Positions 5,051 to 29,215 of a stretch of 29,215 nucleotides of DNA are shown here, one piece after another. Both the position numbers and the translations under genes were made by a program. Positions within the stretch are counted from its first letter, which is position 1. Each line of letters begins with the position of its first letter. Where the stretch lies: positions 1 to 29,215 of IMG/VR virus record IMGVR_UViG_3300032213_001083; one strand, written 5' to 3'. The stretch comes from a virus. The notes under the pieces were generated by a model. That model saw only the letters and a list, made by a program, of their open reading frames with translations, searched no databases and was not told the origin of the DNA.

Positions 5051-6679
5051 ATGGCATTTAGAACAAAGAAAATATCGCAGATGGATCCGAAAGGAGCCAA
5101 CCTTGCATCGACCGATTTATTGGAGATATCTGAATTGGTTAGTGGAAGCTATGTAACCAAGTCAATCACTGGAGCTGAAATCATTTCCAGTGCGACAACG
5201 GGATACGTCCCCTACGTTGGTGCAACACAAGACCTAGAACTAGGAGCAAACGAACTATACACGGGTAAACTTTGGCTATACGATTCAGTCAATGATAACT
5301 ATGGAAGCGTTCACTTTACCGATACTGATTTTCATATCGAGGATGCGGATGGACACAAGATGCTAGTTATCGAAGATGGGTTTATGCAAATCCACAAGAC
5401 CGATACAATCCAATCCAATCTATTTACAAGCGGATTAACTGCGACACGTAACCACTATTTACCCGATGCTAGTGGAACTATTGCCTTGACTTCGGACTTG
5501 TCTAGCTACGTTCCAACGACTCGCACAATCTCAACAACCGCTCCATTGAGTGGAGGAGGTGACCTTTCAGCAAATAGAACGCTTTCGATTCCAAAGGCAA
5601 CTAATTTAGTCGATGGATATTTATCCGCTACGGATTGGACAACGTTTAATGGAAAGCAACCTACACTAGTTAGCGGAACAAACATAAAGACGGTAAATGG
5701 AACTACGATTCTAGGAAGTGGTGACTTGACTATATCTACGGGAATCACAATCGGTACGACTGCAATCACTTCGGGTACTGTTGGACGTGTATTGTTTGAA
5801 GGTACGGGAAATGTAGTAAGTGAATCGGCTAATATCACGTGGGATAATACTAATAACATATTCAATGTTACGGGTTTAATTAAAGCTACTCAAAACAATA
5901 TTTATGCTACTCACGTAGGAGCAAATATTAAAGGATTATACATTGTAAATAATTCGGATTCGGTTGTAAGAGCGGGTTTACAGTATGACGGAAATACTGC
6001 TTTTGTTGAATTAGTAGGAAGATATAATAACGGACAGACATTTTTCCGTCAAGATGGAGGTAATGGAAATATTTCATTTTTAAGAAGTGGTAGCGAATAC
6101 GGGCGTATTTTTGGAGCAACGGGGAATTGGGGCATCAACACCACCACAGACGCAGGATACAAGCTAGACGTTAATGGTACTGCGAGGGTGAGTGGAGAGT
6201 TAAGAGCGGGTAGTTTACAATTATTAACTTCTGGAAGTCCAGGCACAACGGGTCAAGGAATAACTACAACGGCAAGAAAAATATCTTTTCAATCACAAGG
6301 TGAAATTAATGTTGATGGGGCAACCACCTACCAATTACTTGGGTATGCTGATAGTCCCGTCGCTATGACTCAAAATGCTAGTGGTAGAACAATTGGTTTT
6401 CTTCAAGTAAAAGGCGGTTTCTCATCTCCAAATTTTAATAACACACAAGCTAATTTATTATGGATAAATCCGACATATAATATGTCTGGTACAGCAAATA
6501 CGGGGCAAATTTTAAGAGGTATTTATTATAATCCTACTTTAACTGATTTAACGAATGCTACACACTACGCGTTTCATTCAACAAGTGGTAGACACCGATA
6601 TGAAAATTTACCTACTTCACCAACGGGACTTGCTTCGGGTGACTTATGGAACAACTTAGGAATTTTATCAATAGTATAA
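5051..6679 (+). CDS. Tail fibre / appendage protein
   Basis: The N-terminal ~45 residues (KKISQMDPKGANLASTDLLE) match the virion-anchoring start used by several Bacteroidota phage fibres. Residues about 155-215 hold the fibre-type repeat LSGGGDLSANRTLSIPKATN and LSATDWTTFNGKQPTL. Near residue 355-385 is a shaft-type segment (GNWGINTTTDAGYKLDVNGT). The C-terminus lacks an obvious chaperone/peptidase domain. It probably trimerises and carries host-recognition function. Codon use in about 5200-6900 (many ACG, GCG and GGA codons) looks different from neighbouring genes, consistent with exchange of the receptor-binding part. It begins a late unit. Confidence 0.75.
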   Translation: MAFRTKKISQMDPKGANLASTDLLEISELVSGSYVTKSITGAEIISSATTGYVPYVGATQDLELGANELYTGKLWLYDSVNDNYGSVHFTDTDFHIEDADGHKMLVIEDGFMQIHKTDTIQSNLFTSGLTATRNHYLPDASGTIALTSDLSSYVPTTRTISTTAPLSGGGDLSANRTLSIPKATNLVDGYLSATDWTTFNGKQPTLVSGTNIKTVNGTTILGSGDLTISTGITIGTTAITSGTVGRVLFEGTGNVVSESANITWDNTNNIFNVTGLIKATQNNIYATHVGANIKGLYIVNNSDSVVRAGLQYDGNTAFVELVGRYNNGQTFFRQDGGNGNISFLRSGSEYGRIFGATGNWGINTTTDAGYKLDVNGTARVSGELRAGSLQLLTSGSPGTTGQGITTTARKISFQSQGEINVDGATTYQLLGYADSPVAMTQNASGRTIGFLQVKGGFSSPNFNNTQANLLWINPTYNMSGTANTGQILRGIYYNPTLTDLTNATHYAFHSTSGRHRYENLPTSPTGLASGDLWNNLGILSIV

Positions 6680-23696: not shown

Positions 23697-23947
23697 AACC
23701 ATCAACCAAAATACTCGCCATCGTTGGAATACTTCCGGTGATTGGTGACTTCATCGAGGACATGAATGATGAGAAGATATTCACAAAGTCAATAAAACAA
23801 AAGGCGAATATGCTACTCGATGAGATTCGACGAAGTGATAAGAGATTACTCGATGATGCCGGAGAAGAGATATGGAATCAACAAATGGATATACAAATGG
23901 CCTTCAGACAATGGCTACAAAACGCAGAAGATGACAAAGAACGATAA
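23693..23947 (+). CDS. Hypothetical protein (84 aa)
   Basis: The product starts MKPSTKILAIVGILPVIGDF and then is helical and charged (EKIFTKSIKQKANMLLDEIR). The N-terminal hydrophobic stretch is too short to be a sure membrane helix. It precedes the DnaA-IV-like gene with a 17-bp overlap, so it might be part of the replication unit. No family is recognised. Confidence 0.55.
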   Translation: MKPSTKILAIVGILPVIGDFIEDMNDEKIFTKSIKQKANMLLDEIRRSDKRLLDDAGEEIWNQQMDIQMAFRQWLQNAEDDKER

Positions 23948-24335
23948 AATAAAAGCAATTAAATACATCATCCAACGAGATGCATTGGATGTAACGAGTC
24001 GACACCAGGTATTGACAATGAGAAGGAGATACCTAATGGCTGAATTGAGAGCATTGAATCTCCCATTCCATTCCATTGGTGAACTATTCAATCGAGGTCA
24101 TGCAACAGTGATGCATAACATCAAGCAACACAATTGGTCCGTTGAGAGTGGTGATTTATATTACATTACCGTAATTCAAGATGATATCGATGAGCTTCAG
24201 GGAAGTGCTAATGTAAAAAAATTACGATTTTTGAGAGATGATATCCTCAAATGTAGATCATACAATCAGCTCAAATCAATCAAAAGGAGAGTGTTGAGGA
24301 ATGAATATGAGGAGCTCTTGAGCGGTGATGCGTGA
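23931..24335 (+). CDS. DnaA domain IV-like DNA-binding protein (candidate replication initiator)
   Basis: I start at ATG 23931 (MTKNDKIKAIKYIIQRDALD), within the end of the preceding gene. Residues 20-68 match the DNA-binding domain IV of DnaA: DVTSRHQVLTMRRRYLMAEL, then ALNLPFHSIGELFNRGHATV and MHNIKQH. The segment R55-G-H-A-T-V-M-H aligns with the DnaA signature GRDHTTVLHA, and the first helix R..vl...RRrYLMAELR with the R.....a.yL..el region. There is no AAA+ domain. The C-terminal 60 residues are helical. It sits directly before an iteron-rich gap and the primase-helicase, so it may bind the origin. A regulator role is the alternative. Confidence 0.7.
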   Translation: MTKNDKIKAIKYIIQRDALDVTSRHQVLTMRRRYLMAELRALNLPFHSIGELFNRGHATVMHNIKQHNWSVESGDLYYITVIQDDIDELQGSANVKKLRFLRDDILKCRSYNQLKSIKRRVLRNEYEELLSGDA

Positions 24336-24490
24336 CGATATGACGATGCTCTTATATACCTACTCTATACAACAAGTCGTTTTTTAGGAATGGGCATCGA
24401 GTTTTTTTATCGTCACATCGTCACGCTTTTACTCAAAGTTAATACCAATATAGTTTATAGGCGTGACAATAACATTTGAATATCGTCACG
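24330..24490 (+). other. Candidate replication origin: six CGTGACGAT-type iterons
   Basis: Copies of GTGACGAT or its complement occur at 24332-24339, 24341-24347 (TGACGAT), 24409-24416, 24417-24424, 24463-24470 (GTGACAAT) and 24482-24489. The first two and the next two form an inverted pair (24330-24347 and 24409-24426) matching at 17 of 18 positions. The last two form a second inverted pair (CGTGACAATA / TATCGTCACG). The region is noncoding, AT-rich between the copies, and lies between the DnaA-IV-like gene and the primase-helicase. It looks like an initiator-binding array and possible origin, or the operator of the primase unit. Confidence 0.55.
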
Positions 24491-24548
24491 AATTGACATA
24501 TTTGAGTCAAATTATTAGGTCAATAAAACTTTTATATTGAATAATTGT

Positions 24549-24556
24549 TATATTTG
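24549..24556 (+). promoter_or_regulatory. Promoter -7 box TATATTTG upstream of primase
   Basis: Full match to TAnnTTTG. No clear -33 TTG at 17-20 bp is seen, so activation by a bound protein (possibly the DnaA-IV-like one) is plausible. Transcription would start near 24563. Confidence 0.5.
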
Positions 24557-24562
24557 TATGTC

Positions 24563-24656
24563 AAATGCAGGGACAAAAAGGAAATTATTAGAATCCTCTT
24601 GGATTAGTAGTGCTGCATTCACGAACATCCAAGAGGATTTTTCATTTTAAATGCAG
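24563..24656 (+). ncRNA. Hairpin leader / possible attenuator or small RNA
   Basis: A perfect 12-bp stem, AATCCTCTTGGA (24592-24603) with TCCAAGAGGATT (24628-24639), loop of 24 nt, is followed by TTTTTC. If transcription starts at about 24563 this gives an RNA of about 80 nt with a terminator-like 3' end. The loop CTGCATT (24613-24619) is complementary to AATGCAG both upstream (24564-24570) and downstream (24650-24656), allowing two mutually exclusive pseudoknots. The downstream copy is 4 nt before the likely TTG start of primase. It may be an attenuator of primase, a translational switch, or a stand-alone small RNA. Confidence 0.4.
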
Positions 24657-24660
24657 TAAA

Positions 24661-27063
24661 TTGAAAGTATCAGTTTTTAAGAATCTTTTTAGCTCAAAAG
24701 ATACACCGTATGAGCTCACAATTCATGACATATACCAACGCATCAAAGTTGGGAATCCTGAATTGATTTCCAAAATAACAAAAATTAGAAAACTCGAAAA
24801 GAGTGATCCGGAGCATGACCGATTGAAGTCATCATTGAATGCAATTATGTTCAATGGGATATTCTCGGAAAGAAACGACAATTCCTTGGTTGAACATTCC
24901 GGATTATGTGTATTGGATTTTGACCAATATCCAACGAAGGAGGCAATGGATGCAGAGAGAGCTCGATTGATTGATGATAAACACGTCATGATGGTATTCA
25001 CCTCTCCAGGTGGAAATGGATTGAAGGCGGTAATCAGTATTCCAAAATCAGACAAGCTAGAACACAAGAGAAGATTCACCGCATTTGGGAAATACTTCCA
25101 ATCGGACTATTTTGATGTGAAGAATTCAAATGTATCTCGTGTATGTTTTGAATCATACGATCCGAAAATATACTTCAATGAATTTTGTCAAGTATGGGAT
25201 GGAATTGAAACCGATGAGGGATACAATTACACTGAAAGGACTCCAACTTGCGTATTGAATGATGAGGATAAGATTATCTCATTGATTGAACGATTTGACC
25301 ATGGATGTAGATTCGAGGAAGGCAGTCGAAATCACTTTGTTTTCAAGTTGGCTTGTGTCATGTGTGAATATGGCATCGATAAGTCAACCACTGAACAATA
25401 CATATGGACAAAGTATTGTCAAGGAACGAGCTTCAATCATGGTGAGATGGTGACATCCATCAATTCAGCATACAAAAAGGCTACATTCTCAACAAAATAC
25501 TTTGAAGATAAGGATACCTTCCACAAGGTCAAACAAAAACTTAAGTCAGGAATCACTAAGGATGATATCAAGAAACAACTTGGTGTGGCTGACGACATTA
25601 TCGATGATATCAAGGAAGAGATTGCATCCGGTGATGATGTTTTTTGGATGGTGGACTCAAAAAAAGGAATTCAAATTGAGCCAATCAAATATAGTGAGTT
25701 CCTTGTGAAGAGTGGATTCAACAAATACTATCCGGAGAATGCTGAACGACCGACATTTGTGAGGGTAAAGGAGAACAAAGTACGATTGAGCTCAACTGAG
25801 CAAATCAAAGATTATGTTTTGAACTACCTTCTCGATAAGAATGAGGTCAACGTTTGGAACTATTGCTCACGATCACCATATCTCTTCAATGAGAATCACC
25901 TAAACATGATTGACTCGATTGATATCTTCATGCTCCAGGACACAAAGGATTCATCATTCATCCCATTCAAGAATGGAGTGGTGAAAGTATCCAAGAATGA
26001 TGTTAAGGTCATGAGTTATATCGATGTAGATGGATACATTTGGGAGAATCAAATCATTCAACGTGATTTCACACCAATCAAGGACTCAACAAATGACTTT
26101 GAGGATTTCGTGAAAAAGGTATCGGCCAATGATGATGTGAGAATCATGTCACTTGAAACAACCTTGGGATATCTGATTCATTCCTTCAAAGATAAGACCG
26201 ACCAAAAGGCAATCATCTTCAATGACCAAGAGATTGATGACAATCCAAATGGAGGAAGTGGAAAGTCATTGATGTTGGCAGCTCTCGGATACTTCCGAAG
26301 AGTAGTGAAGATTGATGGTAAGGCATTCAATCCTGGAAAGAGTGATTTCGTTTATCAGCGAGTTAACTTGGATTCTCAAATCTTAGCATTCGATGATGTG
26401 AAAAGGAACTTTGATTTTGAGCAACTGTTCTCAATCATATCGGAAGGGATAACAGTCAATCGAAAAAATAAGGATGAGATATTTATCCCATTCGAGAGGT
26501 CGCCAAAGATTGTAATCACAACCAACTATGTAATCAGTGGAGCAGGAAGCTCTCATGACCGGAGAAGGCATGAGCTTGAATTCTTTCAATACTTCCATTC
26601 AAGACGATCACCACTGGATGAGTATGGAAGATTGCTCTTCGATTCATGGAATGATGATGATTGGATTCGCTTTGACAATTACATGATAAAGAATCTTCAA
26701 TCTTTCCTATCCAATGGATTGACCAAATCAATCTCAATCAATGCCGATGCGAAGAGATTCATCCAATCGACATCGAAAGATTTCTATGATTGGACTGAGG
26801 AGGGGAATCTTGCACTCAATGTATTCCATTACAACAGTGGAGTGATGCAACAGTTCACATCCGAATTCAATGGATATAAAGAATTGGAATCAAGGAAGTT
26901 CCTCAAGTGGGTGGCAGAGTATGCCAATGTGAAAGGATATGTGATGAGTAAAGGCAGAAATCACAATGGCAGATATTTTGAATTAAGTATACCAGGTGTA
27001 AAGGTTGAGAAACCAAAGGGAGATATTTGGGATGAGTTAAACGATAAAGCAAAGGAGATATGA
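24661..27063 (+). CDS. Primase-helicase (VirE N-terminal + SF3-type helicase)
   Basis: The likely start is TTG 24661, giving (M)KVSVFKNLFSSKDTPYEL, the usual start of this family; the upstream GTG 24610 lies inside the hairpin. The product is about 800 residues. Residues 1-180 are a VirE/BT4734-like primase-type domain (LCVLDFDQYP, VFTSPGGNGLKAVI). Around 205-275 is a primase C-terminal-like helical domain. At 480-680 is a helicase of the SF3/D5 type: Walker A GGSGKS at 531-536, Walker B with D578-D579 (ILAFDDV), and an arginine-rich sensor region near 630 (SHDRRRHELEF). It would unwind and prime the origin. The host must supply the polymerase. Confidence 0.88.
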   Translation: MKVSVFKNLFSSKDTPYELTIHDIYQRIKVGNPELISKITKIRKLEKSDPEHDRLKSSLNAIMFNGIFSERNDNSLVEHSGLCVLDFDQYPTKEAMDAERARLIDDKHVMMVFTSPGGNGLKAVISIPKSDKLEHKRRFTAFGKYFQSDYFDVKNSNVSRVCFESYDPKIYFNEFCQVWDGIETDEGYNYTERTPTCVLNDEDKIISLIERFDHGCRFEEGSRNHFVFKLACVMCEYGIDKSTTEQYIWTKYCQGTSFNHGEMVTSINSAYKKATFSTKYFEDKDTFHKVKQKLKSGITKDDIKKQLGVADDIIDDIKEEIASGDDVFWMVDSKKGIQIEPIKYSEFLVKSGFNKYYPENAERPTFVRVKENKVRLSSTEQIKDYVLNYLLDKNEVNVWNYCSRSPYLFNENHLNMIDSIDIFMLQDTKDSSFIPFKNGVVKVSKNDVKVMSYIDVDGYIWENQIIQRDFTPIKDSTNDFEDFVKKVSANDDVRIMSLETTLGYLIHSFKDKTDQKAIIFNDQEIDDNPNGGSGKSLMLAALGYFRRVVKIDGKAFNPGKSDFVYQRVNLDSQILAFDDVKRNFDFEQLFSIISEGITVNRKNKDEIFIPFERSPKIVITTNYVISGAGSSHDRRRHELEFFQYFHSRRSPLDEYGRLLFDSWNDDDWIRFDNYMIKNLQSFLSNGLTKSISINADAKRFIQSTSKDFYDWTEEGNLALNVFHYNSGVMQQFTSEFNGYKELESRKFLKWVAEYANVKGYVMSKGRNHNGRYFELSIPGVKVEKPKGDIWDELNDKAKEI

Positions 27064-29028: not shown

Positions 29029-29060
29029 GTCCCAATTTTTACCACATAAATTAAATAGAA

Positions 29061-29087
29061 ATGATAACTAAACAACAAGAACAATGA
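29061..29087 (+). CDS. Mini-ORF MITKQQEQ, second copy
   Basis: Identical to the eight-codon ORF at 805-831, ending in TGA that overlaps the ATG of the next gene. See the finding on the coupling cassette. Confidence 0.4.
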   Translation: MITKQQEQ

Positions 29088-29215
29088 CAGCAGTAGAAAG
29101 AGCAGAAGATTTATATCAAATGTATTACGAATGTTTATGGTACAGCAGTAGAAAGAGCAGAATAAAAAACGCAAAACAAGCCTCTCTTATTGCAGTTGAT
29201 GAGATAATAAAAACA
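29084..29215 (+). CDS. Small 'IAVDEI' family protein, 5' part (continues at base 1)
   Basis: The gene starts MTAVERAEDLYQMYYECLWY, runs to the contig end, and continues in frame at base 1 up to TGA 119-121. It is the paralogue of the gene at 368-562. The 5' part contains a 21-bp direct repeat (29087-29107 and 29142-29162) that is read in two different frames. Together with the 43-bp terminal repeat this shows the window is a circular or circularly permuted genome. Confidence 0.75.
   Translation, partial: MTAVERAEDLYQMYYECLWYSSRKSRIKNAKQASLIAVDEIIKT
29087..29162 (+). repeat. 21-bp direct repeat within the junction gene
   Basis: ACAGCAGTAGAAAGAGCAGA plus one A occurs at 29087-29107 and 29142-29162, 55 bp apart. 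As 55 is not a multiple of 3, the copies encode TAVERAE and YSSRKSR. It may be a real slippage or an assembly effect near the contig end. Confidence 0.7.
29173..29215 (+). repeat. 43-bp terminal repeat identical to bases 1-43
   Basis: The last 43 bases of the window equal the first 43. Since one gene reads in frame across the join, this is the overlap of a circular assembly and not two separate copies. The unique genome is about 29,172 bp. Confidence 0.9.

Follow-up and report, generated by a model that had tools for sequence, protein, structure and literature searches.

The locus analysed here raises two questions, namely what a cluster of short repeats in front of a phage primase-helicase gene is for, and which protein reads it. 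The window, i.e. the whole stretch of DNA that was analysed, is a viral record of 29,215 bases. Positions 1-43 were identical to positions 29173-29215, and because of these identical ends the record is most simply read as a complete circular assembly of 29,172 bp. Genes for a terminase, a portal and a tape-measure protein were present elsewhere in the genome, which therefore belongs to a tailed phage. On its 3' side the primase-helicase gene was followed by a resolvase/endonuclease-like gene, a gene for an Erf-like annealing protein and an exonuclease gene, in that order. A dispersed repeat (approximately AACTAAACAACAAGAACAATGA) was seen before small open reading frames near the genome ends (about 87-130, 550-578, 803-834 and 29059-29096), possibly as repeated translation or promoter leaders. 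Scanning of the genome collection with the primase alignment gave 140 pattern matches with no relative among them, and no prophage or host link was therefore obtained. A literature search found no paper on the replication origin of these phages.

The initial annotation had described six iterons in inverted pairs as a possible origin. The sites were found at the place given, but since the sixth copy has two mismatches, the set consists of three exact copies of CGTGACGAT, two near copies with one mismatch and one weak copy. The geometry was as described: the gap from the stop codon of the DnaA-IV-like gene to the TTG start of the primase at 24661 measured exactly 325 bp (24336-24660), the first copy overlapped the end of the DnaA-IV-like gene, the arms of the 18-bp inverted repeat (24330-24347 and 24409-24426, 61 bp apart) matched at 17 of 18 positions, and the further inverted pair was formed by iterons 5 (+) and 6 (-). 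The features of the locus are collected in Table 1.

Table 1. Position and strand of the features described at the iteron locus.
Feature	Position	Strand	Remarks
DnaA-domain-IV-like HTH protein	23820-24335	+	171 aa; linked neighbour, left-hand crossover arm
Exchanged cassette (iterons and primase-helicase)	24313-27021	+	From DNA comparison with type-B relatives
Iteron 1	24331-24339	+	Exact CGTGACGAT; overlaps TGA (24333-24335) of the DnaA-IV-like ORF
Iteron 2	24339-24347	+	Degenerate TATGACGAT, 2 mismatches; left arm of the 18-bp inverted repeat together with iteron 1
Spacer	24348-24408		61 bp between opposed iteron pairs, T-runs; candidate melting region by analogy with PICI origins (PMC6092414)
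Iteron 3	24409-24417	-	TGTGACGAT, 1 mismatch
Iteron 4	24417-24425	-	Exact CGTGACGAT
Iteron 5	24462-24470	+	CGTGACAAT, 1 mismatch; CGTGACGAT in L008 and L019
Iteron 6	24482-24490	-	Exact CGTGACGAT; abuts primase promoter in canonical relatives
TATATTTG	24549-24556	+	Fits TAnnTTTG; seen in sequence
Structured RNA leader	24559-24645	+	Within extra window segment 24559-24660, between iterons and primase
Leader hairpin P1	24559-24562/24572-24575	+	5' hairpin; loop X AATGCAG 24564-24570
Leader hairpin P2	24590-24604/24627-24641	+	Terminator-like; holds X' CTGCATT 24613-24619
Leader T-run; third copy X''	24638-24642; 24650-24656	+	
Primase-helicase	24661-27063	+	800 aa, TTG start; proposed iteron-binding initiator
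Predicted C-terminal winged-helix domain	26728-26988	+	Residues 690-776; proposed iteron reader (from the model)
Last primase codons (DIWDELNDKAKEI)	27022-27063	+	DNA almost identical between 37%-identical primase alleles; right-hand crossover arm

Among 1000 dinucleotide shuffles of the gap, none produced an 18-bp inverted repeat with 17 or more matches, and 13 produced any 9-mer in three exact copies. With one mismatch allowed, CGTGACGAT was counted 8 times in the whole window against 5.1 expected, which is not significant alone, and the observed family size was reached by 132 of 1000 gap shuffles. The one-mismatch count was dropped as proof of significance, which is carried instead by the inverted repeat and by conservation. 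The genome has six TGACGAT heptamers, five of them within the 160-bp iteron region. In eleven relatives, whose primases were 77-98% identical to that of the window, the iteron columns were 93% conserved (37 of 58 invariant) against 69% (41 of 166) in the rest of the gap. Because conservation, in the heptamer clustering and the iteron columns, settles what counts alone do not, the repeats are judged to be real, and they are very probably functional. A block outside the iterons, GCTTTTGCTSAAAGTCAATACC at about 24426-24447 between iterons 4 and 5, was almost invariant across clade A, and clade B has a CTGAAA block that resembles it.

The gene that the iterons follow was indicated by relatives fetched by means of the DnaA-like gene. 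These were of type A, with the primase of the window, or of type B, with a primase only 37% identical to it. At DnaA-like identities of 70% or more, CGTCAC iterons were found in 17/17 type-A loci and GGTACACA in 0/17, whereas unrelated GGTACACA iterons occupied the same gap in 17/17 type-B loci and CGTCAC was found in 0/17. No mixed case of primase and iteron occurred in this comparison, in which the iteron counts per locus are not independent of each other. At DnaA-like identities below 45%, CGTCAC was kept in 30 of 32 type-A loci and in none of 13 loci with other primases; the two type-A exceptions, L024 and L025, carried degenerate YGTCACG copies of the same motif. The pairing holds both ways, and iteron type thus tracks the primase, whichever DnaA-like protein is encoded beside it. 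De novo repeat searches in the upstream regions of 187 distinct primases revealed clade-specific repeats at the same place: ATCGTCACG in clade A, and CGTCACTT, CGCAACAC, GGTACACAT, GGGGCAGAT, GGGCACAT, AGGTACTT and AGTACACAT. In the clade to which MW202828 belongs, some members had a ATCGACAT repeat at this place. Several of the clade-specific iterons have a CACAT half in common, while the other half varies. Iteron sequence and primase-helicase thus covary as cognate pairs, both in the contingency counts and in the clade-specific repeats, and a one-to-one link of the iterons with the primase allele, independent of the DnaA-like protein, was shown.

Comparison of the DNA with type-B relatives located the borders of the exchanged block. 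Homology between the window and L083, L103, L111 and L119 ended at 24313, 22 bp before the DnaA-like stop codon, and was found again from 27022, some 13 codons short of the primase stop codon, with 98% identity. No DNA homology to type-B relatives was found over 24313-24539, and inside the primase gene it was patchy (64-67% identity); the flanks of the cassette were homologous, mostly with 78-98% DNA identity. At the protein level the flanking products (DnaA-like, resolvase-like, Erf and exonuclease) were mostly 75-97% identical to those of type-B loci, compared to 37% for the primase. L121 (type A) and L119 (type B) have DnaA-like genes with 98.5% DNA identity and an identical 47-bp primase 3' end, and differ in iterons and primases. 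The last primase codons may act as a crossover arm and at the same time encode a conserved C-terminal peptide. On the upstream-gene tree of 36 loci at least 12 changes between A and B were required, very similar to the mean of 12.2 for shuffled labels, i.e. no clustering was observed, and well-supported (starred) branches forced at least 7 changes. The downstream genes required 13 changes against a shuffled mean of 13.3, with 4 forced. IMG/VR contigs, it should be noted, can be chimeric. Iterons and primase were thus shown to form one cassette that is repeatedly exchanged between conserved flanks. The primase is the only constant gene of the exchanged block, HNH inserts being occasional, and because no other gene is always inside the block, the primase-helicase is the simplest candidate for the iteron reader. 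The locus had been described as a self-contained replicon of binding protein, binding sites and helicase-primase. The iteron cluster beside the helicase-primase, inherited and exchanged as a unit, supports that description, though not with the DnaA-IV-like protein as the binding protein.

The primase-helicase was found to consist of a BT4734-like PrimPol N-terminus (PF08800), PriCT_1, a D5/SaPI5-like helicase and a predicted C-terminal winged helix. The PrimPol and PriCT_1 domains were assigned by Pfam and the helicase by its fold. In PHROGs the protein belongs to the unnamed family phrog_28855, and in NCBIfam it gave a partial match to PrimPol_Db and nothing else. A PDB sequence search with the primase gave no hit at E-values up to 1, so fold comparison alone works for this protein. 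An AlphaFold2 model was built from 46 sequences (mean pLDDT 80.5). The best solved fold match for model residues 325-771 was the SaPI5 primase-helicase (7om0/7ola), with a Z-score of 17.4, 391 aligned residues and an rmsd of 6.6. This was followed by vaccinia D5 and mpox E5 (Z about 15-16), ASFV PrimPol and NrS-1 PrimPol, and the best whole-length Foldseek hit was ASFV PrimPol. As modelled, the protein joins a PrimPol to a D5-type helicase, with a predicted fold closest to SaPI5 Rep.

Modelling of the winged-helix domain alone gave a pLDDT of 83, and the pLDDT of the predicted winged-helix topology was about 90. Among the best structural matches of the predicted domain was the P4 origin-binding domain 1ka8, with a Z-score of 6.2 (rmsd 2.5, 70 aligned residues), tied with unrelated winged helices and within the range of common winged-helix resemblances. 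Foldseek with the C-terminal domain alone returned nothing below an E-value of 0.001, and P4 appeared only in structural re-alignment. In the B group, proteins with different iterons (L083 or L151 compared to L154 or L158) were 0.62-0.68 identical in the winged helix, and the same pairs were 0.78-0.84 identical in the PrimPol and 0.88-0.93 in the helicase; L083 and L151, which have the same iterons, were 0.82 identical in the winged helix. This drop is suggestive only, because the C-terminal domain is the fastest-changing part of the protein in general. All GGG-type proteins had KDY(S/P)DL...(W/Y)LT, in contrast to EYTD(Y/W)...(L/M)S at this place in the TAC-type proteins. The predicted winged helix is consistent with a role as iteron reader.

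It is likely that the repeats are the iterons of the phage replication origin and that they are read by the adjacent primase-helicase, probably via its C-terminal winged helix. Copies of the primase-helicase would bind the opposed iteron pairs that flank the spacer, as well as the extra inverted pair downstream. The bound protein would then assemble helicase rings, melt the spacer and prime synthesis, like P4 alpha and SaPI/PICI Rep, and the iteron nearest to the promoter would also let the primase-helicase control its own gene. By analogy with these systems we infer origin activity at the iteron site, with binding, melting and autoregulation by the primase-helicase. The GC-skew plot, which had been proposed as a check, was monotonic without a sign change at 24.4 kb and was uninformative in that respect. 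The lack of a turn at the site counts against an origin, as does the only modest enrichment of A+T in the spacer (66% compared to 61% in the genome). The lack of a turn would also fit operators only, i.e. a primase-helicase that represses its own promoter while replication starts elsewhere. The position of iteron 6 against the primase promoter in canonical relatives also fits operators, and autoregulation explains the cassette link equally well. However, 5-7 conserved sites over 160 bp, with opposed pairs around a spacer, exceed the needs of a simple operator, and helicases of related fold bind origins and load themselves there (PMC7581432). An operator function only is considered unlikely.

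That the DnaA-IV-like protein binds the iterons as initiator had been proposed. The adjoining gene does encode a DnaA domain-IV-like HTH, iteron 1 does overlap its stop codon, and a homologous gene is often found upstream of the primase in other clades. The only domain recognised in the protein is this HTH (Pfam 30.8 bits, slightly under the cut-off of 31.5), without an AAA+ part, and a search of phage records with it gave no match. DnaA boxes (TTATNCACA) with up to one mismatch were absent from the gap, the sole hit in 23.6-25.0 kb being at 23777, outside the gap. A Pfam scan of the DnaA-like protein and the primase gave no match to the RepA_N domain. As a binder the protein was rejected on the double dissociation across relatives, since iteron type follows its gene in neither direction: near-identical copies, including the pair with 98.5% DNA identity, face unrelated iterons, genes with up to 93% protein identity to that of the window flank two unrelated iteron sets, and divergent copies face the same set. 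The DnaA-like protein thus appears not to determine iteron specificity, and its role as initiator at these sites is very improbable. Least credible of all is a role outside replication, in which the repeats would be sites recognised by a mobile HNH endonuclease or used in recombination; NUMOD4-HNH genes are inserted beside the iterons in several relatives and the whole block recombines frequently, but the iterons are kept in relatives without an HNH gene, including the window (no HNH homologue found), the HNH gene adjoins both iteron types, and the crossovers were placed in the DnaA-like gene and at the 3' end of the primase, outside the iterons.

The gap of the window is longer than that of canonical relatives. 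The latter have a gap of about 202 bp, with the primase ATG just 3' of a TAnnTTTG-type promoter box; in the window about 124 bp of additional sequence lies past the last iteron, ahead of the primase. Its TATATTTG is taken by us to be a TAnnTTTG -7 box of Bacteroidota promoters. A structured RNA leader is predicted downstream of this box, in which X' is the reverse complement of X over 7-9 nt (kissing loops). Among 17 leader sequences, base changes that preserve pairing were seen in all three helices (5' stem, X/X' and terminator stem); the helices were located in each sequence separately because P1 was misaligned by automatic MAFFT. A scan of 4.6 million bases gave 26 distinct hits, compared to 4 hits, not deduplicated, in a reversed control. 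About 23 of the 26 immediately preceded the primase, or preceded a small gene or an HNH gene that stands between hit and primase. The leader was also found in L009 (4596-4700), L105 (5629-5732) and L024 (4614-4725), and in L026, L041, L078, L171, L177, L180, L193 and L197. The window leader had a folding z-score of -3.4, and the scores of four relatives ranged from -2.3 to -3.4; an Rfam search with the leader gave no match above threshold. The leader is a candidate new cis-regulatory RNA that would attenuate transcription of the initiator gene.

Insertions of NUMOD4-HNH homing endonuclease genes exactly at the junction of leader and primase start were seen with either iteron type (L009/L121, L018, L105, L088, L024, L026, L078, L083, L111 and L092); the window has the leader and lacks the HNH gene. 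Another conserved leader, GGGGTTGTCGGAGGCATCCAC...CCTTTCCCCC followed by a T-run, was seen in L085 (about 5750-5830) and in most type-B and D48 loci (L107, L151, L154, L187). Its loop could pair with sequence 3' of the T-run, and a small hairpin, GGAGGCATCC, is swapped for GGTTAGCTGCC in some loci. Folding of the type-B leader of L085 was no better than that of shuffled sequences (z-score -0.32), and no structure is therefore claimed for it.

A likely origin reader could in this way be identified from sequence alone, through a natural swap experiment in dozens of environmental genomes. From eight or more iteron types, each paired with a primase-helicase allele, a recognition code of the winged helix could be derived, and why the phages keep exchanging origin types becomes a testable question, with a candidate new regulatory RNA at the same spot. 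One tentative explanation, which we regard as possible but rather doubtful, is that origin types are alleles which this phage population exchanges freely, that antagonists favour rare types and that the kissing-loop RNA attenuator sets the dose of the initiator. If so, cassettes of iterons and primase-helicase would move between nearly identical genomes by crossing over in conserved sequence, on the left at the 3' end of the DnaA-like gene and on the right in the 42-47 bp that end the primase gene. The antagonists would be homing endonucleases at the origin, satellites, competing phages or host defences.

Several known replication systems resemble this locus in part. As in bacterial oriC, a DnaA domain-IV-like HTH is involved, here encoded next door to the iterons, but DnaA boxes and an AAA+ DnaA are lacking and the iterons are independent of the DnaA-like gene. 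The origin of PLE, a phage satellite of Vibrio cholerae, covaries with the DNA-binding part of its initiator and is exchanged with it as a module (PMC8263062), as proposed here for iterons and reader. The PLE initiator is a RepA_N protein and not a primase-helicase, and exchange has been reported at least twice, compared to the at least 7 allele changes forced among 36 loci in the present study. SCCmec Cch2 likewise has a D5-type helicase, and its isolated C-terminal domain binds direct repeats beside the gene (PMC7581432), the putative origin having three iterons; its repeats are downstream of cch2, however, and the primase is a separate polymerase-like protein pair. In P4 alpha, a winged helix binds the origin repeats, after which unwinding and priming follow (PMC4234260). 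P4 alpha combines primase, helicase and this C-terminal origin-binding domain in one protein; here too primase and helicase are joined, with a predicted winged helix as the proposed origin-binding domain. The P4 primase is of the TOPRIM type, in contrast to the PrimPol/AEP-like N-terminus (PF08800) found here, and the P4 iterons differ in sequence from those of the window. The SaPI/PICI rep-ori systems share a fused AEP primase and D5-type helicase with the locus, as well as iterons that adjoin the gene and form two opposed sets, one on each side of a spacer (PMC6092414, PMC7581432). In PICI origins the two iteron sets flank an AT-rich region (PMC6092414), and SaPI Rep recognises its iterons by the C-terminal domain (PMC7581432). 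The sequence identity of the window primase-helicase to the solved proteins is only about 13%, and unlike SaPI/PICI the genome is that of a phage with its own terminase, portal and tail genes. Furthermore, SaPI/PICI origins are located directly 3' of rep, whereas the window and the relatives examined have their iterons 5' of the gene. The best reading of the locus by analogy is a system of the P4/SaPI/PICI kind, with the putative origin 5' of the gene and frequent matched exchange of origin and initiator.
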